Of a stretch of DNA of 64,000 nt, positions 7,381 to 63,106 are shown one piece after another. The notes below the pieces were generated by a model. It had not been told where the DNA came from, did not search any database, and saw only the letters and a list, made by a program, of their open reading frames with translations. Each line of letters starts with the position of its first letter. The first letter of the stretch is position 1. Both the position numbers and the translations under genes were made by a program. Source of the DNA: an uncultured Synergistales bacterium (lineage in GTDB: Bacteria > Synergistota > Synergistia > Synergistales > Aminobacteriaceae); assembly GCA_905235735.1 (NCBI GenBank), contig CAJOMU010000004.1, positions 62,001 to 126,000 of the forward strand. Reading direction: 5' to 3'.

Positions 7381-8205
7381 ACGCTTAATCTTCAGGAAAT
7401 CGTATACCCATTCCTCGATTATCTCCCAGAACAGCCATAGCAATACTGACGCAATCATCATCACTGCGAATAATATCTCTACCCAGAGTGTCAGACCTTC
7501 AGCAAAACCTGCACCTGTGAGTGATAGCACAAGCATTCCAGGAGCACGGCCAAGTAAACATACGAGTGATAGAGGAAGCAATTTCAGTTTCGTCAGGCCA
7601 GCGAGAAAACATACTGCATCATCAGGGAGTGCAGGCAGCAGGAATATCATGAAGAACGTCATGTATCCTCCGTCAGATACAACCTTATCGAAACGCTGAA
7701 TTATCGAATCAGGCACTACCTTACGAACAAGAGATATTCCCAGCAATCGCGCTAAGACCATTGCGATTAAACTTCCAATCACAAGGCCGAGTGTCGTCAG
7801 GAACCATCCCTTCCAGAACCCAAAAATGAATCCTCCTGCTAATGCCGCAGCCTGTCCTGGTATTGGTGCAATAACAACCTGCAGCACTTGTACTAGTATG
7901 AATACCCATTCTGAACCTTCGCCGAGCGTCCTCAGTTCTGACGGGTTATGTGCATAGTACGATATGCTTTCGATTACTCCTTCGGGCAATATGAATCTCA
8001 ATGCCAAGAGTACAGCCGAGAGGACTAACATGATGACGAATGCGGGAATGACGATCATGATTAGTGAAGAGAACTTCCGCTTGAGCAGATCAATGAACCA
8101 CTGCTTTGTAAATCTTTTTTCGAATGACTTCGTTTGTGTTATCTGATTTTGATTCAGCTTAACGGGATTAGGTTTACGTTTAATTTTCTTCTTTTTCTTT
8201 GACAT
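7375..8205 (-). CDS. VTT-domain (TVP38/TMEM64, DedA-like) membrane protein
   Basis: This is a polytopic membrane protein of 276 residues from the VTT/SNARE-associated family, whose members are linked to lipid movement across membranes. A very basic N-terminus (SKKKKKIKRK) precedes several hydrophobic segments. The family core is seen as IPGQAAALAGGFIFG, GSLIAMVLARLLG and LLPALPDDAVCFLAGL. AGGAG seven bases before the ATG supports the start. Its 3' end overlaps the phospholipase D gene, and the pairing with a phospholipid synthase fits a membrane-lipid role; the actual substrate is unknown. Confidence 0.85.
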   Translation of the reverse strand: MSKKKKKIKRKPNPVKLNQNQITQTKSFEKRFTKQWFIDLLKRKFSSLIMIVIPAFVIMLVLSAVLLALRFILPEGVIESISYYAHNPSELRTLGEGSEWVFILVQVLQVVIAPIPGQAAALAGGFIFGFWKGWFLTTLGLVIGSLIAMVLARLLGISLVRKVVPDSIIQRFDKVVSDGGYMTFFMIFLLPALPDDAVCFLAGLTKLKLLPLSLVCLLGRAPGMLVLSLTGAGFAEGLTLWVEILFAVMMIASVLLWLFWEIIEEWVYDFLKIKRS

Positions 8206-8220
8206 CTTTAACTCCTGAAT

Positions 8221-8259
8221 AAAAAATGGACACCAGCAAAATATATCAACTGATGTCCA
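8221..8259 (-). terminator. Intrinsic terminator after the 8291 gene
   Basis: On the minus strand TGGACATCAG pairs with CTGGTGTCCA (one G-U) and is followed by six T. It isolates the small exported-protein gene from the VTT gene downstream. Confidence 0.8.
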
Positions 8260-8290
8260 ATATTATCTCATATCAAATTGCATTACAACG

Positions 8291-8689
8291 TTACTTCCAG
8301 CCCACAGACGATAAACTTATCCATTGATTTTCCTTGAACACACTGTTGCCTAAGAGATTCATTCCGTTGCTGTCTCGCAGAACACTCACCATTATTGTGC
8401 CGTCGGACTTCTTTAGATTCATCTCAACAAGCATTTCATGTTTTCGCCACCAGCCCTGATAATACATTCTCACTCTTGCGCGTATTACTCCGGATTCTTT
8501 CTCAAATGGATTTTCATCATACTCCGCAACTGCCTTCGAGGGGTTAGCTGTCGGGTGAAAGTCCGTAAGCACCTTTTCTTTTGCAAACGCGACAAAGTCA
8601 AAGCCTGACTCCTGTGCTGATATTGAGCAGGCCAAAATCATGATGAAAATTAACGATATTACGATGGAAATTGTCTTTTTCATCTTCAC
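8291..8689 (-). CDS. Small exported protein, paralogue of the 8907 gene
   Basis: The protein has 132 residues and no family I recognise. It starts with a basic, hydrophobic signal sequence ending in ILACSIS, which may be a lipobox (C21). The mature part contains FDFVAFAKEKVL, DFHPTANP, YDENPFEK and GVIRARVRMYYQGW, all closely matched in the neighbour at 8907-9371, and ends in GWK like it. The two are tandem duplicates about 45-50% alike by eye. It is expected in the cell envelope. An 11-bp tandem repeat lies in its upstream region, and it has its own terminator. Confidence 0.75.
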   Translation of the reverse strand: MKMKKTISIVISLIFIMILACSISAQESGFDFVAFAKEKVLTDFHPTANPSKAVAEYDENPFEKESGVIRARVRMYYQGWWRKHEMLVEMNLKKSDGTIMVSVLRDSNGMNLLGNSVFKENQWISLSSVGWK

Positions 8690-8724
8690 AATTACCTCCT
8701 TGATTGTAATTTCGTATACTTTAT

Positions 8725-8779
8725 CAGTATAAAATCAGTATAAAATCAGTATAAAATCAGTATAAAATCAGTATAAAAA
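8725..8779 (-). repeat. 11-bp tandem repeat, five units, upstream of the 8291 gene
   Basis: The unit cagtataaaat (plus strand) starts at 8725, 8736, 8747, 8758 and 8769. On the minus strand each unit carries TATACT, close to a -10 box, and the 11-bp period nearly matches one DNA helical turn. It lies 36-90 bases before the gene's start codon, in promoter position. Confidence 0.9.
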
Positions 8780-8831
8780 ATAAATAAAAATACTTTATTA
8801 TTTGAAATTGATGTTATGAGAATTTGAGCAT

Positions 8832-8869
8832 AAAAAATCGGCACCAGCTTTATATTTCACTGATGCCGC
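8832..8869 (-). terminator. Intrinsic terminator after the 8907 gene
   Basis: On the minus strand CGGCATCAG pairs with CTGGTGCCG (one G-U) and is followed by a T-rich run. The stem closely resembles the terminator of the paralogous gene at 8221-8259, so the duplication probably included the terminator. Confidence 0.8.
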
Positions 8870-8906
8870 GAAATAATCATTGATGGTTTTTGTAAAAAGG
8901 ATTGAC

Positions 8907-9371
8907 TTATTTCCAGCCCATTGCCGCAACGCTTACCCATTCGCCTTCTTTGAAGAATCTGTTGCCGACAATGTTCATGCTGTTCGTGTCCTTGATGAGG
9001 GAAATCTTAATCTGATTGTCTGATTTCCTGTAATCCATATCGATCAACATTGAGTGCTGACGAATCCAGCCTGAATAGTATATACCTACTCTGGCTCTGA
9101 TGATTCCGTCTCCCTTGTCGAAAGGCTTCTCATCATACTGAACTTCTGCTTTTTCAGGGTCTGCTGTCGGATGAAAATCTTTCAGAACTCTCTCTTTTGC
9201 GAAATTCAGAAAATCAAACTCGCCTTCTGCTGCTTCAGTTGGTGCGGCTGCCTCTGTCTTTGAGGTATCTGTGATTGCGCCATACACTGATGATGCTTCT
9301 TCTGATGATGCACATGAAACTATTCCTGCGAGCAACATAATAACTAAAACGCTGATTGTTATCTTCTTCAT
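8907..9371 (-). CDS. Small lipoprotein, paralogue of the 8291 gene
   Basis: This 154-residue protein has a signal sequence ending in a good lipobox (IVSC, C20), so it should be a lipid-anchored envelope protein. A low-complexity linker (EAAAPTEAAEGE) follows, then the shared domain: FDFLNFAKERVLKDFHPTADP, YDEKPFDK, GIIRARVGIYYSGW and a final GWK. I know no family for this domain. Function is unknown; the domain is probably beta-rich with conserved aromatic residues. It is followed by its own terminator and then by the 8291 paralogue. Confidence 0.78.
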   Translation of the reverse strand: MKKITISVLVIMLLAGIVSCASSEEASSVYGAITDTSKTEAAAPTEAAEGEFDFLNFAKERVLKDFHPTADPEKAEVQYDEKPFDKGDGIIRARVGIYYSGWIRQHSMLIDMDYRKSDNQIKISLIKDTNSMNIVGNRFFKEGEWVSVAAMGWK

Positions 9372-45436: not shown

Positions 45437-48400
45437 ATGAAAACAAAGAAGCGTTTTATTGGGTTCGCAGTCGTTGCAGGGTTCTTGTTATCTTTGGCAG
45501 GAAGTGCGTGGGCAGCGTATACTAAGTCTGCGATTAACATGCGAGAGAATGAGACTCCATTCGAGAAAGCAGAAGTAGATGCAACTTATAATCAGACAGT
45601 GAAGTACATATATGCTTCGTCTAGTGGAAGCGTAACAACTGCATACTTTTTTTTAGGAAGCAGTTCAAGCTCATACGCAAATAACGGTACTGCGGGTCCA
45701 GATTCGCTGGATTTAGGAAGTGGTCTTTCCGCAACTGTCGCTACAAGTTCTAATATAGCTTCTCTTACGATATCTGGAAAACCAACGTCATTAGGTGATA
45801 TATCGTTTAAGCTCTGGAGGAGTTCAGCAGCTCTCACTAGTAAGCTCACAAATGTTGCTTATTTAGACATTACAATTTCTGTTAAAGAAGCCTACAGCGC
45901 ACCAAAAGGTAAACCAGCATTCAAGACAGCAACAAAACTTGCGGATTGTGAGATTAATGATTCTTTCGAATACACTATTGAAGTTACAGCAAACCAGAGC
46001 GGAGTAGCTGATATAGAGCTTGGTGATCTTCCAGAAGAAACTGAAAGTGGCATAAACGAACTCACAATAACCGAGACAGGGGACAACAAAGCAACTCTAA
46101 CAGGTACGCCTAAGTCAACGGGTACATTCACAATTCCTATTAAAGCAAAATGGGATGAAACAAAAAGCGGAGGCGAAGTACCAGAAGATGAAACAACAGC
46201 TAACTTCACGCTCAAAGTTACAGGCATAAAACCCTCAATTACAGCAACAGCAGGCGGCACAGAAGTTGAATCCGGCGGCGACCTTTCAGCAGGTTTCGAC
46301 GTAGACGGCGTTGATGACGAGGGCACAGTAGTTGCAACTACAGCCATGAAGGATGGCGGAATTGTCTTCACAGCAACAGGCTCAAAGGGAAATAAGTTCG
46401 ACATCACAGTATCAGGGCTTCCAACAGGCATGACAGCAACAAAGGGCAAAGTTACCAAGAATGAAGATGAAACGATGTCCGACTTAACTGCAACCATAAC
46501 CGGCAGCCCAACCAAAGCAGGAACGTACACCATCAAAGTTTACGGAACAAATGATGACGGAAAAGGCGATGAAGTATCGTACACTCTCAAGGTATCATCA
46601 AATCCTGACCTCTCCAGCCTGAAGCTCTCCGATGTAACGTGGGGTACAGCATACAATGCAACACTCACAGCTAAGGGACTTCAGACCGGCGAAAAAGTTA
46701 CGTGGTCAATCGAAGACCCTGAAGAGGGTGCAAAAGGAAACTGGCTGAAGACATCTGATTTCGGAGACGATGGAACAACCGGCCTCACTCTTGATTCTGA
46801 GACAGGGAAAATCTCAGGAACATGGGACAAAATGGATTCTGATACAGAGGGAGTTGGAGTTGCTTTAGGTTCAGCAAAGGACAAGACCTACAATCTGAAA
46901 ATTAAGGCTACACTCGGAAAAGCAGAACCTACAAAGACAGTTACGCTGAAGTTCAAAGCCGCAAAACCGACAATCGGAACACCTAAATTAGATGACTCTG
47001 AACTAGATGGTGCGGCAGAATTTGACTATGATGCTGAAGCGGCACAAGAACTCAAAGTTTCAGCAAAAGGTCCCGGAAAAGTTAAACTGAGTGCTTCAGG
47101 GTATCCTAAATGGATGACAGTTACATCAGGAACAGATGAAGAAACCAAAGAACCCACGCTCACAATCACGGGTACACCTACGGAACTTGCAAGCAATGCA
47201 TCATTCACACTTACGGCAGAAAATGCTGCTGGAAAAACAACGTCCACAATAAGATATTCTGTTACCGGCACATTGTATTGGGACACTACAGAAGAAGGGG
47301 CTGTTGATCCTACTGGAGAAGGTACACTCCCGGACGGAGCATACAAGAAAGGTGAAGACATTACAGCAGAGGGTTCAAACCTTAACGTAGAAGCTCTTCC
47401 AGGAAACGCAAAGGCAGATGCGCTAGGTACAATTACACTCTGTGCGAGACCAGGCCCGATTCAGTGGAAAGCTACGGGACTTCCTGCAGGCGTAACACTC
47501 ACGCCAGACAAGAAAAACGGTACAATTGCATATCTCTCAGGAAAGCCTACAGCAGTAACTACGAAACTTGATGATGACGGAGAGAGCAAGTACACGATAA
47601 CGGCAACGAATACAGTTACCCGAAAGTCGCTTGACCCGATAACCAAGAGCATAGTCGTTTACGATACGCCTGTCATCACTACTAAAACTCTTCCAGCACT
47701 CTCAACTGGCAAGAACTATTCAGCGAAACTTGCGGTATCGAACGCACAGTTCAACGCAAAATGGACTGTAGGATTCGGCGAAACTGAAGATGAAGCAAAA
47801 GCAGACACTACAGGGAAAATAACAATTGGAGACGGAACTCTTGAGTTTGACTCTGATACACTCACGATCACTGGAGATTCAGACATTAACAGAGTGAAAA
47901 ATGTCTATGTTTACATCAAAGTTGAGAACCCTGCAGGTGAGGATGAAGATACATTGTCCATCACCGTTAAGGGAGTTGCCGCGAAGATTGATAACGTAAC
48001 ATTCGGAGATCTCGCTGACGAGGAAAGCATAGAGTTCACAGCAACAGGTACTCAGCCAATCACAATGACTGCATATATCGATAAAGCGGCGGCCAAGTCG
48101 ATGTTCGGAGTTACTGACGGAACAAGCATTGATCTCTCAGATGAAGATAACGTTGCTAAACTTGTGTTCGCACCTAATACAGGCACATCCAATGTAGGCG
48201 CAAGAAAGAAGAATGTAGGTAAAGCTCCTGTAAACGTGAAGGACGGTGAAGGGACAGAAGATAACGGAACTGGACAGCTCTCTGCTGCTGATGGCTTGAA
48301 AGCTATCTATAAGAATGTTCCTGTAACGATTGCTGTCATTAACGCTGGAATGACTAAACCTGCGACTAAGGTCTTCAAGATCAACTACACGCCTAACGAC

Positions 48401-50332
48401 TACGAGAAACCTTCTCTGACAGTCAACGGTACGGCACTCGAAGAAGACCCCGATCCGATTCAGGGTAAGGCTGGCGAGGATGTAGCAAACTACGTGATAA
48501 CTGTGGAAGGAACTGATCCGATCGACATCAAGGTAAGCGGTGCGGCAAAAGATACTGCAGAGGAAGGCGTAAAAGCAGCAGTAAGCGACAAGACCATAAC
48601 GATCAGCGGAAAATATCCTGCAGACAAAGAGAGCAAGACCACGATAACGGTAACGGCAACGAACACATCAACGAAGGATAAAGTTTCTCGCAAGTTCACG
48701 TTTGTGGGAGCACTTGCACCGTCAATCACAACTGCAGAATCAGGACTTAAGAAGGAAGTTGAGGTCGGAAAGTCTGTAAATATTTCACTCGCCGCAAAAG
48801 GAACGAAAACACTCACATGGTCAGTTGCAAACGACACATTATTACCTGATGGGCTTATGCTGGATACTGAAAAGGGCAAGATTTCAGGAACGCCTACAGC
48901 ACCGACAGTTAACGACGCAGGAGAATATGAACCTGCTGTTGTTCCTATCAAGGTAGAAAACGCTGCCGGAGATGATACGAAAGACGTAACGATTGGTGTC
49001 AAAGGCAAGAAAGCAACCCTCAAGACGAAGACCGTTACGATTCAGAAGGGCGACGACCTTGCAAACGAGTTAACAGCTGCAGCACTTGAAGTATCCGGCG
49101 TTGATGATACTGACACTGTGAAAATAACTCCTGCTGAAACGATAGTCAACAAGGTCAGCGATGGAGGCGAAGCAGAGACAGCAAAACTCACAGCACTTGG
49201 CCTTACGCTTGCTAAGGACGGCACATGGACAGGTCCAGATCTCATTGCAACAAAGGGAACGAGCGTTAAACTTGCAGTCGAGAACATCGGAACGATAACA
49301 ACTGGCAGCGTGAAGATCATCATCAAGGATGTACCTCCAGAGATTGAATGTGATGATAGTGCAAGCAGGATTAATATTGAAGGCAGTGCAACAGGCGCAG
49401 TTACGAAAACTTACGAACTTTCAATCAAGGACGGCACAGTAACAGGTGATACTGCGGTAAACTGGAAAATTTCAAAGAAACCTTCAAAGATTCAGGCAAC
49501 AATCACGCCGAGCAAGAAGACCGACGATGCAATAGCTGGTGCAACTGCTACACTGACGGTTACAGTTCCGAAAGGTTTCAAGAACAATCAGAAGAAGGAT
49601 ACGGCAAACCCTGTAGTTGACGAAGAAACCGGAAAGAAAACGTATCACTACACGGATGAGTATCTCTACACAGAATTAACTGTAACGCTGACGAACAACA
49701 GCACAAAAGACACTGGCGAAATGGTCTTCAAGTTCAAGGTAAAACCAGCTGAACCAACTGCAAAAGATATGGCCGACTTTAATGTTGAGCCTGGTGAAGA
49801 TCCTGACGATGAAGACAGTGAAGTAGAAAATACGAATGCTCTTCCTCAAAACGTTACGGAGAATAAATCAGAAGCCGATGAAGCTGAAGCAGACGAAAGA
49901 CTCATAGTCGGTGAAGCAAGAACTGCAGACAGCCTCACAGCCAGTGAACGTGCATTCCTCGCTGAGAATGGATATGTCATCGCGGCAATCCTTCCTGAGG
50001 TGAAAGCAACTGAAAGCGACTGGTACAATATGAACGTTGCACTCGCAGAAGAAGCACCCAAAGGCGGAGAACTCGTGTGGTTCGCATTCCCCAGAAATGC
50101 AGAAGCTACAGAGGACGATGAAGCAGTGTTCTACGATGCAGAAGGCGCAGAGATTACTTCAGTCCCAGAAGAACACAAAGCGGAAGTGTCTGCATGGTTA
50201 AATGAGGACGTAACATATGCACCTGTTATCGCAGTCAAAGTTGATAACGCAACAGGAGCAAAAGATACTCTCAATGACGCAGACGCAGGAGACGTTGTAA
50301 CTGAAGATGCATTGAAAGAAGCAAAAGAGTAA
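45437..50332 (+). CDS. Giant exported protein with Ig-like repeats (copy 2)
   Basis: This is a 1631-residue exported protein, paralogous to the one at 14399. GGGAGG nine bases upstream supports the ATG. The signal peptide (MKTKKRFIGFAVVAGFLL, cleavage near AWA) is followed by an N-terminal domain with NQTVKYIYAS and then about a dozen beta-sandwich repeats with the He_PIG-like pattern (GLPTGM, ITGSPTKAGTYTIKV, LPAGVTLTPD). The last ~130 residues (NGYVIAAILPEV, LVWFAFPRNA, DVTYAPVIAVK) match copy 1. The chain is rich in Thr, Lys, Glu and Asp. No anchor motif is seen. A surface adhesin role is inferred. Confidence 0.88.
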   Translation: MKTKKRFIGFAVVAGFLLSLAGSAWAAYTKSAINMRENETPFEKAEVDATYNQTVKYIYASSSGSVTTAYFFLGSSSSSYANNGTAGPDSLDLGSGLSATVATSSNIASLTISGKPTSLGDISFKLWRSSAALTSKLTNVAYLDITISVKEAYSAPKGKPAFKTATKLADCEINDSFEYTIEVTANQSGVADIELGDLPEETESGINELTITETGDNKATLTGTPKSTGTFTIPIKAKWDETKSGGEVPEDETTANFTLKVTGIKPSITATAGGTEVESGGDLSAGFDVDGVDDEGTVVATTAMKDGGIVFTATGSKGNKFDITVSGLPTGMTATKGKVTKNEDETMSDLTATITGSPTKAGTYTIKVYGTNDDGKGDEVSYTLKVSSNPDLSSLKLSDVTWGTAYNATLTAKGLQTGEKVTWSIEDPEEGAKGNWLKTSDFGDDGTTGLTLDSETGKISGTWDKMDSDTEGVGVALGSAKDKTYNLKIKATLGKAEPTKTVTLKFKAAKPTIGTPKLDDSELDGAAEFDYDAEAAQELKVSAKGPGKVKLSASGYPKWMTVTSGTDEETKEPTLTITGTPTELASNASFTLTAENAAGKTTSTIRYSVTGTLYWDTTEEGAVDPTGEGTLPDGAYKKGEDITAEGSNLNVEALPGNAKADALGTITLCARPGPIQWKATGLPAGVTLTPDKKNGTIAYLSGKPTAVTTKLDDDGESKYTITATNTVTRKSLDPITKSIVVYDTPVITTKTLPALSTGKNYSAKLAVSNAQFNAKWTVGFGETEDEAKADTTGKITIGDGTLEFDSDTLTITGDSDINRVKNVYVYIKVENPAGEDEDTLSITVKGVAAKIDNVTFGDLADEESIEFTATGTQPITMTAYIDKAAAKSMFGVTDGTSIDLSDEDNVAKLVFAPNTGTSNVGARKKNVGKAPVNVKDGEGTEDNGTGQLSAADGLKAIYKNVPVTIAVINAGMTKPATKVFKINYTPNDYEKPSLTVNGTALEEDPDPIQGKAGEDVANYVITVEGTDPIDIKVSGAAKDTAEEGVKAAVSDKTITISGKYPADKESKTTITVTATNTSTKDKVSRKFTFVGALAPSITTAESGLKKEVEVGKSVNISLAAKGTKTLTWSVANDTLLPDGLMLDTEKGKISGTPTAPTVNDAGEYEPAVVPIKVENAAGDDTKDVTIGVKGKKATLKTKTVTIQKGDDLANELTAAALEVSGVDDTDTVKITPAETIVNKVSDGGEAETAKLTALGLTLAKDGTWTGPDLIATKGTSVKLAVENIGTITTGSVKIIIKDVPPEIECDDSASRINIEGSATGAVTKTYELSIKDGTVTGDTAVNWKISKKPSKIQATITPSKKTDDAIAGATATLTVTVPKGFKNNQKKDTANPVVDEETGKKTYHYTDEYLYTELTVTLTNNSTKDTGEMVFKFKVKPAEPTAKDMADFNVEPGEDPDDEDSEVENTNALPQNVTENKSEADEAEADERLIVGEARTADSLTASERAFLAENGYVIAAILPEVKATESDWYNMNVALAEEAPKGGELVWFAFPRNAEATEDDEAVFYDAEGAEITSVPEEHKAEVSAWLNEDVTYAPVIAVKVDNATGAKDTLNDADAGDVVTEDALKEAKE

Positions 50333-50425: not shown

Positions 50426-50676
50426 TTGACTTGACAATTCAAGATTCATATGTGATCATTTACTCGCAAAAATTTTTTCATAAACGGAGATTTTAAGTTG
50501 CATAACAGAAGTCTTAACTCAGCAGATTTTTTCAGCTTTACGTTTTACCGCTGGTATCACTACCAGAGGTTTAATTCGCTTTGGCTGACTTGAGGCTTCA
50601 ATAATACAACTGAATACACGAACCAAAACAGAAGCACCTTCTGAGACAGTCAAAGAGTTTCGGAGGGTGCTTTTGT
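50426..50676 (+). ncRNA. Possible leader RNA or small RNA upstream of the aroB homologue
   Basis: Two overlapping -35 boxes (TTGACT at 50426, TTGACA at 50431) have TATGTG or GATCAT 17 bases on. The stretch then contains a hairpin (CTGGT-ATCACT-ACCAG near 50552) and ends in an intrinsic terminator at 50634-50676: GCACCTTCTG pairs with CGGAGGGTGC and TTTTG follows. There is no open frame with a ribosome site. It is either a terminated small RNA or an attenuated leader of the next gene. I cannot match it to a family. Confidence 0.45.
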
Positions 50677-50712: not shown

Positions 50713-51789
50713 ATGCCTGCCAACGTTAAAATCAATGCCGCGAATCACTGCTACACAATCAAAATACGAAAAGGTCTCGTAGAACGTCTTGGTCTTGAGA
50801 TACTGAATCTCAATGACTATTCAGATACGGAAATCGCATTAATCACTGACGAAAAAGTCTCTGGTCTATATCTTCAGAAAGTCATCATGAACTTCCAGAG
50901 ATGTCCCAAACCTGAAGGAACAAAATTACGAATCTGTGAACTGCTCATCGATTCACATGAAGCATCAAAGAACTTCAGAACAGTCTCGAAATTGCTCGAA
51001 GATTTAGCTTCACTTGGCCTCAGTGAAAAAGTATGCATAGCTGCACTTGGAGGAGGAGTTGTATGTGATGCGGCAGGGTTCGCGGCTGGATGCTACAAAA
51101 ATGGTGTCAGGCTCGTGCTCATTCCCACAACGATTGCAGCTATGGTGAAATCATCTGCTGGAGGTCATGCACGTTTAAATCTCTCTGCCGGTGAAAATCT
51201 CGCTGGAATGTCATATAACCCTTCACTCGTCCTATGCGATACTGAATGCCTCAGAACTCTTCCTGATGATGAATACAGAAGCGGATTATCAGAAGCATTC
51301 AAGACGTCGATTGTTGCAGGAGGAGACGTGTTCAGGATGTTCGAACGCGGAATTGATTCAGGGAATATCGAGAAGGTCATTGAGGAATGCGTGAAGTTCA
51401 GAGCAGACATTTCAAGCAATGATGATATGCAGAAGTCTTTGAAGCTCGGCTGTGTTGTCGGTAGCGCAATAGGTGCACTGAGCATGTACGAGATTCAGCA
51501 CGGACTTGCAACGGCTCAGGGCATAGCAATAACTGCAAGGGCAGCGGCAAAAATGAAATGGTGCAGTGATGAGACCTCAGATAGAATCATAAACGCAATG
51601 AAGAAAAATAATCTGCCGGTTTCATGCAGGAGTTTCACAGCTCAGGAGATTACACAGGCCGCGCTCGCCAACAGGACACAGGGAAGCATGATTGATATGG
51701 TGATTGCGTCCGAAATTGGGAAGTGCGAAATAAAAAGTGTAAAGGCGGAGGAACTTGAAAGCATTATTTCTATGGGCATGACCGCATAA
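50713..51789 (+). CDS. Divergent 3-dehydroquinate synthase homologue
   Basis: This is an AroB-family (sugar phosphate cyclase) protein of 358 residues. AALGGGVVCDAAGF, LIPTTIAAM and GLSEAFKTSI show the fold. Several residues that are conserved in true dehydroquinate synthase differ: the VGGKT lysine is H152, the GKN lysine is E161, the GHTxGH histidines are C247 and S251, and HGE is HGL (L265). E194 and H263, expected metal ligands, remain. It may be inactive or act on another substrate. A start with GAGGAG is clear. I leave the symbol blank for this reason. Confidence 0.75.
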   Translation: MPANVKINAANHCYTIKIRKGLVERLGLEILNLNDYSDTEIALITDEKVSGLYLQKVIMNFQRCPKPEGTKLRICELLIDSHEASKNFRTVSKLLEDLASLGLSEKVCIAALGGGVVCDAAGFAAGCYKNGVRLVLIPTTIAAMVKSSAGGHARLNLSAGENLAGMSYNPSLVLCDTECLRTLPDDEYRSGLSEAFKTSIVAGGDVFRMFERGIDSGNIEKVIEECVKFRADISSNDDMQKSLKLGCVVGSAIGALSMYEIQHGLATAQGIAITARAAAKMKWCSDETSDRIINAMKKNNLPVSCRSFTAQEITQAALANRTQGSMIDMVIASEIGKCEIKSVKAEELESIISMGMTA

Positions 51790-51843
51790 ATGTAATATAA
51801 TATAGCTACATACTTTTCATGCTTTTCAGGAGGTGCTATACAC

Positions 51844-52374
51844 ATGGAAATACGTTTTGTTCAGCGAGGCACTGAAGTAGACAGCAAGCTCAGGGAGTAT
51901 ATGGAGAAGAAAATCTCGAAACTTGAGAAATTCTTCAAGAAAATACTGAACTGTCAGATTGTAGTTACTCATCACAAAGGCAGCTTCAACGTTGAGACGA
52001 CAGCTAATGCTAACGGAGTAATTCTCAGAGCAGAAGAAGATGCATCAGAACCAAGAGAGGCATTTGATCAGGCACTGAAGAATCTTGAGAGACGAATCAA
52101 GAAGCATAATTCGTATCTCAAGGACAGGGCGCAGTTAGGTGCAGGTGATTTCACATTCAGCCTTGAAGAGGTTGAAGAGCCTACAGAGTCATCAAATGCA
52201 ATTGAGAAGGTCAAGAAGGTTCAGCTGAATCCTATGGAGCCTACAGAGGCTATCATGCAGATGGAGCTTATTGGTCATGCGTTCTTCATGTTCCAGAATG
52301 CGGAGACGGGAGAGATTAACGTAGTCTACAAACGCAAAGAGAACGGCTACGGTCTTCTTGAACCCGTAAGATAA
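51844..52374 (+). CDS. hpf: Ribosome hibernation promoting factor, long form
   Basis: Long HPF pairs idle ribosomes into 100S dimers. The 176-residue protein has the N-terminal domain (EIRFVQRGTEVDSKLREYMEKK, where EDASEPREAFDQALKNLERRIKKH ends it) and the C-terminal dimerisation domain (PMEPTEAIMQMELIGHAFFMF and NVVYKRKENGYGLLEP). AGGAGG lies upstream of the ATG, and the gene has its own terminator. Confidence 0.95.
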   Translation: MEIRFVQRGTEVDSKLREYMEKKISKLEKFFKKILNCQIVVTHHKGSFNVETTANANGVILRAEEDASEPREAFDQALKNLERRIKKHNSYLKDRAQLGAGDFTFSLEEVEEPTESSNAIEKVKKVQLNPMEPTEAIMQMELIGHAFFMFQNAETGEINVVYKRKENGYGLLEPVR

Positions 52375-52387
52375 TTCCTGCGAATCA

Positions 52388-52426
52388 TTTTCCCTCTGGC
52401 TTAATCGTCAGGGGGAATTTTTTTTT
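52388..52426 (+). terminator. Intrinsic terminator after hpf
   Basis: TTCCCTCTG pairs with CAGGGGGAA (one G-U) and is followed by nine T. Confidence 0.9.
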
Positions 52427-52456
52427 GCGTGATATTATTCTCCATGAGGTGAAACA

Positions 52457-61549: not shown

Positions 61550-63106
61550 ATGAATTTACGTAAAATATTTCTATTCTCATTTCTCATTATGATTCTCTCT
61601 TCTGCACAGTCATTCGCAGAGAGCACTTATGTTGCTGGTGATGTAGTTGTTGTTCTCAGGTCATCAGGACAGGTTTCAGCATCATCATCTTCAGTAAGTT
61701 CAGCAGCATCGTCATTCGCAGAGATGAACGGGGCATCACTCACGAAAGTATATCCTGCGTTATCGAAGGCAGGCAATGAGATATTCGCATTGATTCACTC
61801 TGATGATATTGACCCTGAAGAGTTCTCGAAACTTCTCATGAAGAACCCTAACGTCATAGCAGCTTCACCGAACCATATCGTGAGAGCAGCAGCTGTTCCC
61901 AATGATACATATATGTCTCGGCTATGGGGATTTGAGGCAATCAATATGCCGAACGCATGGGACAAGGAAACAGGAAGCAGCAATGTCTATGTTGCAATAG
62001 TAGATTCAGGAATCGATTGGACTAATCCGGATCTCACTGCGAATGTAGCAAGCAATCTCGGCTTCACAGCAATAGGCATACCTGCATCAGCATATGACGG
62101 TTTCGACAATTATGGTCATGGGAGTCATGTAGCGGGTACAATCGGAGCAGTAAGCAACAACGGGGTAGGTATAGCAGGAATAAACTGGTATGTCAGAATG
62201 ATTCCCGTGAAAGTTCTCGACAATAGTGGTTCAGGTACAACAGATACGGTAGTTGAAGGAATGAATTACATTGCACAGCTAATGTCCGAAGGCTATAACA
62301 TCAGGGCAGTAAATCTCTCCCTCGAAGCATATGTAGTAATGGCACCAACACATGATAATCTCATTCAATATCCTATGTGGCGTGCATTCAAGGCAGTAGA
62401 TGAATACAATCAGGCAGTGATAGTTGTAGCGGCAGGGAATCAGGGAATAGCGATAGGTGAGGCAACTACATACACAAAGCGAGATTCTGGCGGCATAGTA
62501 TTTGAGAGGGGCAGTTATGCATACCCTGCATCATTCAAAGGCTTGAACAACATGATAAGCGTATCAGCGGTGAACATAAGCGGAAATCTTTCATCGTACA
62601 GCAACTATAATGCTGATATATCTGCTCCTGGCGGAGATCTCGATACTGATGAAGGTTTGATTCTAAGCACATGGATTCAGAATTCCCAATTCCTAAATGA
62701 CGAAGGAATATCTATCCGACCACTACGGGGTACATCAATGGCCGCACCTCATGTAGCTGGAGCAGCAGCACTTCTTTCCGCACATGATCCTAGTATGACT
62801 GCATACCAGATTAAGACGTGCATTTTAGATAGTAGTGCTCCAGGCGGTGAAGGGCTTCTTGATGTAGATGCGGCGATACTGTATCAGGAGTATTATGGCA
62901 AGAGTCTGAGCAGTGAGGGTACAGAGGGGAATTCATACAGTGATTGGAGAGGTAACAACAAGGACGACTACGATTATGGTCGTGATTATGATTATGGTCG
63001 TAATGAATCGTCTTCAGGTTCTGGTGGCTGTAACGGATTCATGTCAGTATCAGTAATATTTGCGATGATTTTGGTTTATCCGCTTGCAAGAAAGTTAATG
63101 AGCTGA
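61550..63106 (+). CDS. Exported subtilisin-like serine protease with Synergist-CTERM tail
   Basis: This is an S8 family protease of 518 residues. AGGAGG lies 11 bases before the ATG at 61550; an ATG at 61541 is too close. A signal peptide ends near SFA. An I9-like propeptide (VAGDVVVVLRSSG) follows. The catalytic residues are D152 (IVDSGID), H190 (HGSHVAG), N297 (AAGN) and S396 (GTSMAAPHVAG). The C-terminus has a Tyr/Asp/Arg spacer, then SSSGSGGCNGF, a hydrophobic helix and ARKLMS: the Synergist-CTERM layout, probably cut and lipid- or membrane-anchored by a dedicated sortase-like enzyme. Confidence 0.92.
   Translation: MNLRKIFLFSFLIMILSSAQSFAESTYVAGDVVVVLRSSGQVSASSSSVSSAASSFAEMNGASLTKVYPALSKAGNEIFALIHSDDIDPEEFSKLLMKNPNVIAASPNHIVRAAAVPNDTYMSRLWGFEAINMPNAWDKETGSSNVYVAIVDSGIDWTNPDLTANVASNLGFTAIGIPASAYDGFDNYGHGSHVAGTIGAVSNNGVGIAGINWYVRMIPVKVLDNSGSGTTDTVVEGMNYIAQLMSEGYNIRAVNLSLEAYVVMAPTHDNLIQYPMWRAFKAVDEYNQAVIVVAAGNQGIAIGEATTYTKRDSGGIVFERGSYAYPASFKGLNNMISVSAVNISGNLSSYSNYNADISAPGGDLDTDEGLILSTWIQNSQFLNDEGISIRPLRGTSMAAPHVAGAAALLSAHDPSMTAYQIKTCILDSSAPGGEGLLDVDAAILYQEYYGKSLSSEGTEGNSYSDWRGNNKDDYDYGRDYDYGRNESSSGSGGCNGFMSVSVIFAMILVYPLARKLMS

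Follow-up and report, generated by a model that had tools for sequence, protein, structure and literature searches.

A conserved aromatic-rich leader precedes a degenerate AroB homologue and hpf in uncultured Synergistales bacteria

The 64,000-nucleotide stretch analysed here (the window; positions 62,001 to 126,000 of contig CAJOMU010000004.1, assembly GCA_905235735.1) comes from an uncultured Synergistales bacterium and carries a homologue of aroB, the gene for 3-dehydroquinate synthase (DHQS), which is preceded by a short open reading frame (ORF) rich in phenylalanine, tyrosine and tryptophan codons and followed by hpf, the gene for a long-form ribosome hibernation promoting factor. The AroB-like protein has lost most of the catalytic residues expected of a DHQS while remaining under purifying selection, and comparison of related loci strongly supports a classical attenuator architecture for the aromatic-rich segment before it. 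On balance, we lean towards a joint reading in which this attenuator, the remnant of a collapsed operon, induces an AroB pseudoenzyme and lets transcription read on into hpf when aromatic amino acids are scarce. An earlier note, made from the letters of the window, had drawn attention to the degenerate homologue and was silent on both the upstream attenuator and the linkage to hpf.

Residues, fold and descent of the AroB-like protein

The window protein was compared with AroB of Escherichia coli K-12 (from NC_000913) in an alignment that also contained 21 canonical relatives and 31 degenerate orthologues, two of them truncated and one a fragment at a contig end. Sites are numbered as we take them to run in the Aspergillus DHQS, and the roles given to residues are likewise our assumption. 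The earlier note had listed H152, E161, C247 and S251 as replacements and E194 and H263 as retained, all of which was borne out against the E. coli protein; further losses were found at the D146, R130, R264 and N268 sites, which hold K146, N130, Q240 and K244, respectively. The R130, D146, K152, K161, R264, N268, H271 and H275 sites are all altered in the window protein, which lacks the conserved set of metal ligands and substrate-binding residues of AroB. The claim that most catalytic residues of DHQS are gone stands in this wider alignment as well: R130, D146, K152, R264, N268, H271 and H275 are kept in all 21 canonical proteins, whereas among the degenerate orthologues with a letter at the site R130 is kept in 0 of 30, K152 in 0 of 31, R264 in 0 of 27, H271 and H275 in 0 of 29 each, D146 in 4 of 30 and N268 in 3 of 29. 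K161, glutamate in the window protein, persists in 19 of 31 orthologues, and the K250 site holds arginine in 28 of 31. Because the residue loss is common to a set of orthologues from 31 genomes under purifying selection, it is not the product of chance or sequencing artefact.

Other residues are retained across the degenerate orthologues, including E194 (29/31, with aspartate in two), H287 (29/29), K197 (24/31) and N162 (26/31), as well as residues on what would be the nicotinamide adenine dinucleotide (NAD) side, namely E83 (28/28), K86 (26/28), T139 (29/30) and T140 (30/30). D119 is kept in 14 of 30, and a novel cysteine occupies position 118 in all 30, where all 21 canonical proteins have glycine. 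The earlier suggestion that a metal ligand was missing or replaced by cysteine held for the loss (H271 kept in 0/29), but cysteine is the replacement in only 8 of 29 orthologues. Similarly, the change from HGE to HGL is present, but counting it as a loss was misleading: only 1 of the 21 canonical relatives has the glutamate, and HGL is therefore unremarkable. No support was found for a changed substrate handled by a new active site, because the lost positions settle on no new conserved residues (S, R, H, N, Y, L or T at the K152 site; Y, C, R, V or A at the H271 site). The persistence of E194 and H287 means that the protein may use metal in an altered way.

The fold is kept, as the earlier note had held. 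Both DHQS domains (PF01761 and PF24621) are present in the window protein, the nearest solved structures are DHQS by sequence and by fold, and an AlphaFold2 (AF2) model with 24 orthologues in its input (mean pLDDT 85) matches DHQS structure 3okf with a TM of 0.87. The score against the NCBIfam aroB model TIGR01357 is 209.2 bits, below the equivalog cut-off of 305. A depletion of aromatic residues in the AroB-like proteins is not established: their share is 5.1% in 30 proteins against 5.9% in the 21 canonical ones, and just four of the latter, from Fretibacterium and G019, already range over 4.2-7.0%. As side observations, the orthologue L021 (G024) has an insert of approximately 45 residues in mid-protein, adjoining the end point of the 236-residue forms described below, and a remoter AroB homologue in Mageeibacillus sp. 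UBA6976 (L116) also departs from several active-site motifs, perhaps by independent degeneration.

Of the 43 genus genomes sampled, 32 contained a match, which was canonical in G019 and degenerate in the remaining 31. Records for the same or near contigs belong to metagenome-assembled genomes of Synergistaceae or Synergistales, mostly from ruminant gut, two of them labelled Fretibacterium. In a quick tree that left out the contig-end fragment, the 30 degenerate proteins form one clade (SH-aLRT 100, stem 1.0) adjoining the canonical proteins of Fretibacterium and G019, and on this evidence the degenerate AroB is a descendant of the canonical AroB of related bacteria. The ratio of nonsynonymous to synonymous substitution rates (dN/dS) was 0.06-0.19 across the 24 pairs with the smallest dS, drawn from 23 sequences, which indicates purifying selection and agrees with the earlier impression that the gene is not decaying; for hpf, in pairs with both genes, it was 0.03-0.11. 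In G007 and G020, only 236 residues are left, the C-terminal domain having been lost, and hpf starts approximately 64 nt past the stop codon; the two genes nevertheless differ by 16 synonymous and 5 nonsynonymous changes over approximately 155 and 547 sites (Fisher p 1.2e-7). In only 6 of 9 pairs did the C-terminal domain evolve faster, too few to establish such a trend. With catalytic residues lost and purifying selection maintained, the AroB-like protein appears to be a pseudoenzyme, a seemingly dead DHQS.

The host offers little context for a working DHQS. In the window's genome, which is 99.78% complete, the search for another aroB that the earlier note had proposed returned none, the second match being weak (E 2e-4), and no type II DHQS (PF01959), chorismate synthase (PF01264) or chorismate-binding enzyme (PF00425) was found. 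Likewise, no 5-enolpyruvylshikimate-3-phosphate (EPSP) synthase scored above cut-off, a sub-threshold match being read as MurA, and no 3-deoxy-D-arabino-heptulosonate 7-phosphate (DAHP) synthase was apparent, the lone PF00793 match lying amid genes like those for 3-deoxy-D-manno-octulosonate (Kdo) and being read by eye as KdsA. The genes tested thus give no shikimate pathway in the host; AroQ, AroD and AroK were not searched for. Given that chorismate synthase, EPSP and DAHP synthases and enzymes using chorismate all appear to be missing from the host genome, it is very unlikely that the AroB-like protein makes dehydroquinate. Among 37 genus genomes surveyed, AroC is present in three (G019, G021 and G036). 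In L147 (G000:C18), an AroE-like gene (PF08501; approximately 8186-9055) lies in a cluster that looks catabolic by eye and includes a TRAP transporter; the remainder of the shikimate pathway is not apparent in that genome. A second cyclase homologue in G034 (L141, C20; 362 aa) was considered as a counterpart of the AroB-like gene and rejected, having canonical motifs and lying in another cluster; next to it lie a gene resembling those for thiamine-diphosphate enzymes and one for a short-chain dehydrogenase, which may point to a secondary-metabolite or sugar cluster.

The leader and its alternative helices

A conserved segment precedes the gene in all 30 degenerate loci with upstream sequence and holds, in order, a promoter-like site, a ribosome-binding site (RBS), an ORF 27-37 codons long and, just before the gene, a terminator hairpin (Table 1). 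A promoter consensus scan alone was not above chance (4 found versus 4.5 expected). All 30 orthologous loci that could be tested carry a homologous Phe/Tyr/Trp-rich leader ORF, with products that are alike and 23-39% aromatic (274 of 928 residues F, W or Y), a count biased upward, since among possible start codons the one chosen had an RBS-like string and gave the greatest number of aromatic residues. A fixed filter requiring an RBS-like string, 7 or more aromatic residues and an aromatic share of 23% or above passed 28 of the 30 real upstream segments compared to 38 of 1500 dinucleotide-shuffled ones, and across the whole window it passed one other ORF (minus strand, 59236-59153). The locus therefore has a short, RBS-bearing leader ORF rich in codons for the candidate regulating amino acids. 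Selection on the peptide itself appears weak (ratio of nonsynonymous to synonymous differences, pN/pS, 0.59 in 7 of 10 pairs, three of unequal length having been skipped) and is confounded by RNA structure. No Rfam family matched the leader at gathering score, with chance-level matches only (E up to 10), and a riboswitch reading was dropped because the element encodes a leader peptide. Where genomes lack the AroB-like gene, no convincing match to the leader was found ahead of hpf.

Four regions of the segment form mutually exclusive, covarying helices (1:2, 2:3 and 3:4), the last of them a terminator between the leader ORF and the first gene. In a duplex-energy permutation test on 26 sequences (the 30 minus four near-duplicates), the mean cognate duplex energy was below that of 20,000 out of 20,000 permutations for each helix, while 8313, 16896 and 12770 of 20,000 permutations were equally low for the controls 1:3, 2:4 and 1:4; these counts are not probabilities, as related sequences are not independent, and the controls share the same relatedness. 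In an alignment of 28 sequences (A3), paired cells amounted to 83.1% for 1:2, 91.4% for 2:3 and 98.8% for 3:4, and both partners had changed in 16, 12 and 16 cells, respectively; these values exceeded all 500 shuffles and every slid version. In 1:2 fewer pairs stand out, the number showing change in both partners being at least equalled in 110 of 500 shuffles. The mean folding energies of the three segments were -24.2, -18.4 and -19.4 kcal/mol. The aromatic run begins right after region 1, a position that would fit masking of region 1 by a stalled ribosome.

A covariance model built from 28 of the 30 degenerate loci and run over 100 relatives matched the 30 degenerate loci at E ≤1e-20, G036 at 2e-14 and G021 at 4e-12. 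In G021 and G036, the leader encodes a similar aromatic peptide and precedes tyrA-aroA-aroC-pheA-aroK, while weaker matches (E 8e-5 to 0.05, 18 loci) lie upstream of aroF-tyrA-aroB-aroA-aroC-pheA operons in Fretibacterium and Clostridia. The fixed filter also finds aromatic leader ORFs before aro operons in L097, L104, L099, L100, L102 and L103; it missed F. fastidiosum (L098), where such an ORF emerges only when the filter is loosened. The genes of these operons were named by eye from translations, except for aroA and aroC of the genomes with G handles. The model found no leader in the canonical G019 and gave two further weak matches in the window's genome (E 0.02 and 0.09). Because the same leader stands before aromatic biosynthesis operons in relatives, it is most likely that the attenuator is ancestral and that the degenerate locus is a collapsed aromatic operon. 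As a separate observation, G021 (L153, C75) and G036 (L154, C20), which have no aroB match alongside the operon behind the leader, look like shikimate importers; their assemblies are incomplete (83% and 79%).

Linkage to hpf and competing explanations

In 30 of the 31 genomes with the degenerate gene, hpf is the next gene downstream and points in the same direction, while the remaining flanking genes differ among genomes. The gap between the two genes is approximately 40-93 nt in 28 genomes and approximately 320-350 nt in G010 and G030. In the window, no terminator was found between them, and a strong one follows hpf. Directly upstream, at window positions 45437-50332, lies a gene for a secreted-looking protein of 1631 aa with Ig-like domains (PF05345), and roughly half of the compared regions have a similar protein encoded ahead of the aroB-like gene.

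Table 1. Features of the leader, aroB-like gene and hpf region, in window coordinates.
Feature	Position	Strand	Details
Promoter-like site	50431..50459	+	-35 TTGACA 50431-50436; extended -10 TGTGATCAT 50451-50459; conserved in 30 aligned upstream regions
Leader peptide ORF	50498..50593	+	31 codons, TTG start, TGA stop, 10 Phe/Tyr/Trp; GGAG 50486-50489
Attenuator region 1	50513..50529	+	Pairs with region 2
Attenuator region 2	50575..50596	+	Includes the stop codon and 3' end of the leader ORF; alternative partners are regions 1 and 3
Attenuator region 3	50633..50658	+	Terminator 5' arm and loop; pairs with region 2 (antiterminator) or 4 (terminator)
Attenuator region 4	50657-50670	+	Pairs with region 3 as terminator
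Terminator hairpin (3:4) with T run	50634..50674	+	98.8% of cells paired in 28 sequences
Degenerate AroB homologue	50713..51789	+	358 aa, ATG start
Promoter-like site for hpf	51773..51801	+	TGGGCA, 17 nt, TATAAT; overlaps aroB-like 3' end
hpf, long-form ribosome hibernation promoting factor	51844..52374	+	PF02482 and PF16321
Terminator past hpf	52390..52427	+	11-bp stem and T run

Attenuators of Phe/Tyr/Trp operons, of the trp and pheA type, provide the mechanism proposed here. The aroB-like gene would be all that is left of an aromatic-amino-acid operon. When charged Phe-, Tyr- and Trp-tRNA are ample, the ribosome would reach the leader stop codon and cover region 2, so that terminator 3:4 forms; when they are scarce, it would stall at the aromatic codons, 2:3 would pair, the terminator would be blocked, and RNA polymerase would transcribe the aroB-like gene and then hpf. 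The AroB-like protein would make no dehydroquinate but would keep its fold and probably its NAD side in a non-catalytic role, with binding or scaffolding suggested by the retained NAD side and the variants reduced to the N-terminal part. The extra HPF would favour ribosome hibernation in a bacterium unable to make aromatic amino acids. A stronger version, in which the attenuator of these gut bacteria, taken to be auxotrophic for aromatic amino acids, has been co-opted as a hibernation switch that co-induces HPF and an NAD-binding AroB pseudoenzyme acting on HPF or the ribosome, is put forward only tentatively.

Several observations weigh against the joint reading. E194 and H287 are kept in nearly all orthologues, which a pure scaffold would not need; in G013, the aroB-like gene and hpf lie on separate contigs with different neighbours; and 8 of 10 compared genus genomes without the AroB-like gene carry hpf nonetheless. 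In addition, hpf probably has a promoter of its own inside the aroB-like 3' end, and therefore the leader may add little to the level of HPF. This last point leads to another explanation, possible though in our view doubtful, that the attenuator meaningfully controls the AroB-like protein only and that the linkage to hpf is incidental, being kept for that promoter. The promoter-like site in the window, the TATAAT found in each of 24 gap sequences inspected and the wide gap in G010 and G030 are consistent with incidental linkage; however, the two genes stay together in 30 of 31 genomes though other neighbours change, including both genomes whose gene lost its C-terminal domain, and the window has no apparent terminator between them.

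An enzyme of altered specificity is also conceivable but improbable: the protein would be a relative of the sugar-phosphate cyclases with a new substrate or metal site, still controlled by aromatic starvation. The kept fold and the persistence of E194, H287, K197, N162 and the NAD-side residues would suit such an enzyme, whereas the variability of the substrate-site positions and the purifying selection on the shortened proteins of G007 and G020 would not. We give almost no credence to an ordinary DHQS of this phylum: although fold and both Pfam domains are kept and the protein is the sole AroB homologue in the genome, it scores under the NCBIfam cut-off, lacks catalytic residues that relatives of the same family keep, and belongs to a genome without AroC, EPSP synthase, a chorismate-binding enzyme or an apparent DAHP synthase.

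Relation to known systems

Compared to AroB (TIGR01357; PF01761 and PF24621), the window protein is alike in fold, full length, NAD-side residues, E194 and H287, but differs in its lost substrate and metal residues, its sub-equivalog score and a host without an apparent shikimate pathway. With the trp and pheA attenuators the locus shares an aromatic-rich leader ORF, the alternative helices 1:2, 2:3 and 3:4 and a terminator before the first gene, but what is controlled here is an AroB pseudoenzyme, with hpf rather than biosynthetic genes downstream. No report of an aroB-like/hpf operon was found in the literature searched, with subscription papers outside its scope. If the joint reading is correct, a biosynthetic attenuator has persisted beyond the loss of its pathway to drive a pseudoenzyme, and perhaps a hibernation factor as well, a rewiring of nutrient sensing after gene loss; this would suggest a reason for keeping a seemingly dead AroB in 31 genomes of one genus. 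It would also make directly testable an amino-acid-specific control of hibernation, which is otherwise ascribed to (p)ppGpp (PMC9226507).

The uORFC-13-1 motif upstream of aroF in Acholeplasma is described in PMC8632094 as a short ORF, for which attenuation of a gene of the shikimate pathway is proposed; short ORF and attenuation are alike, the lineage and the gene are different, and the likeness drawn here is one of description. In PMC9226507, HPF induction is reported to depend on (p)ppGpp, and both systems would link expression of a hibernation factor to starvation, but the candidate signal in the window is specific to aromatic amino acids and would act in cis by attenuation.
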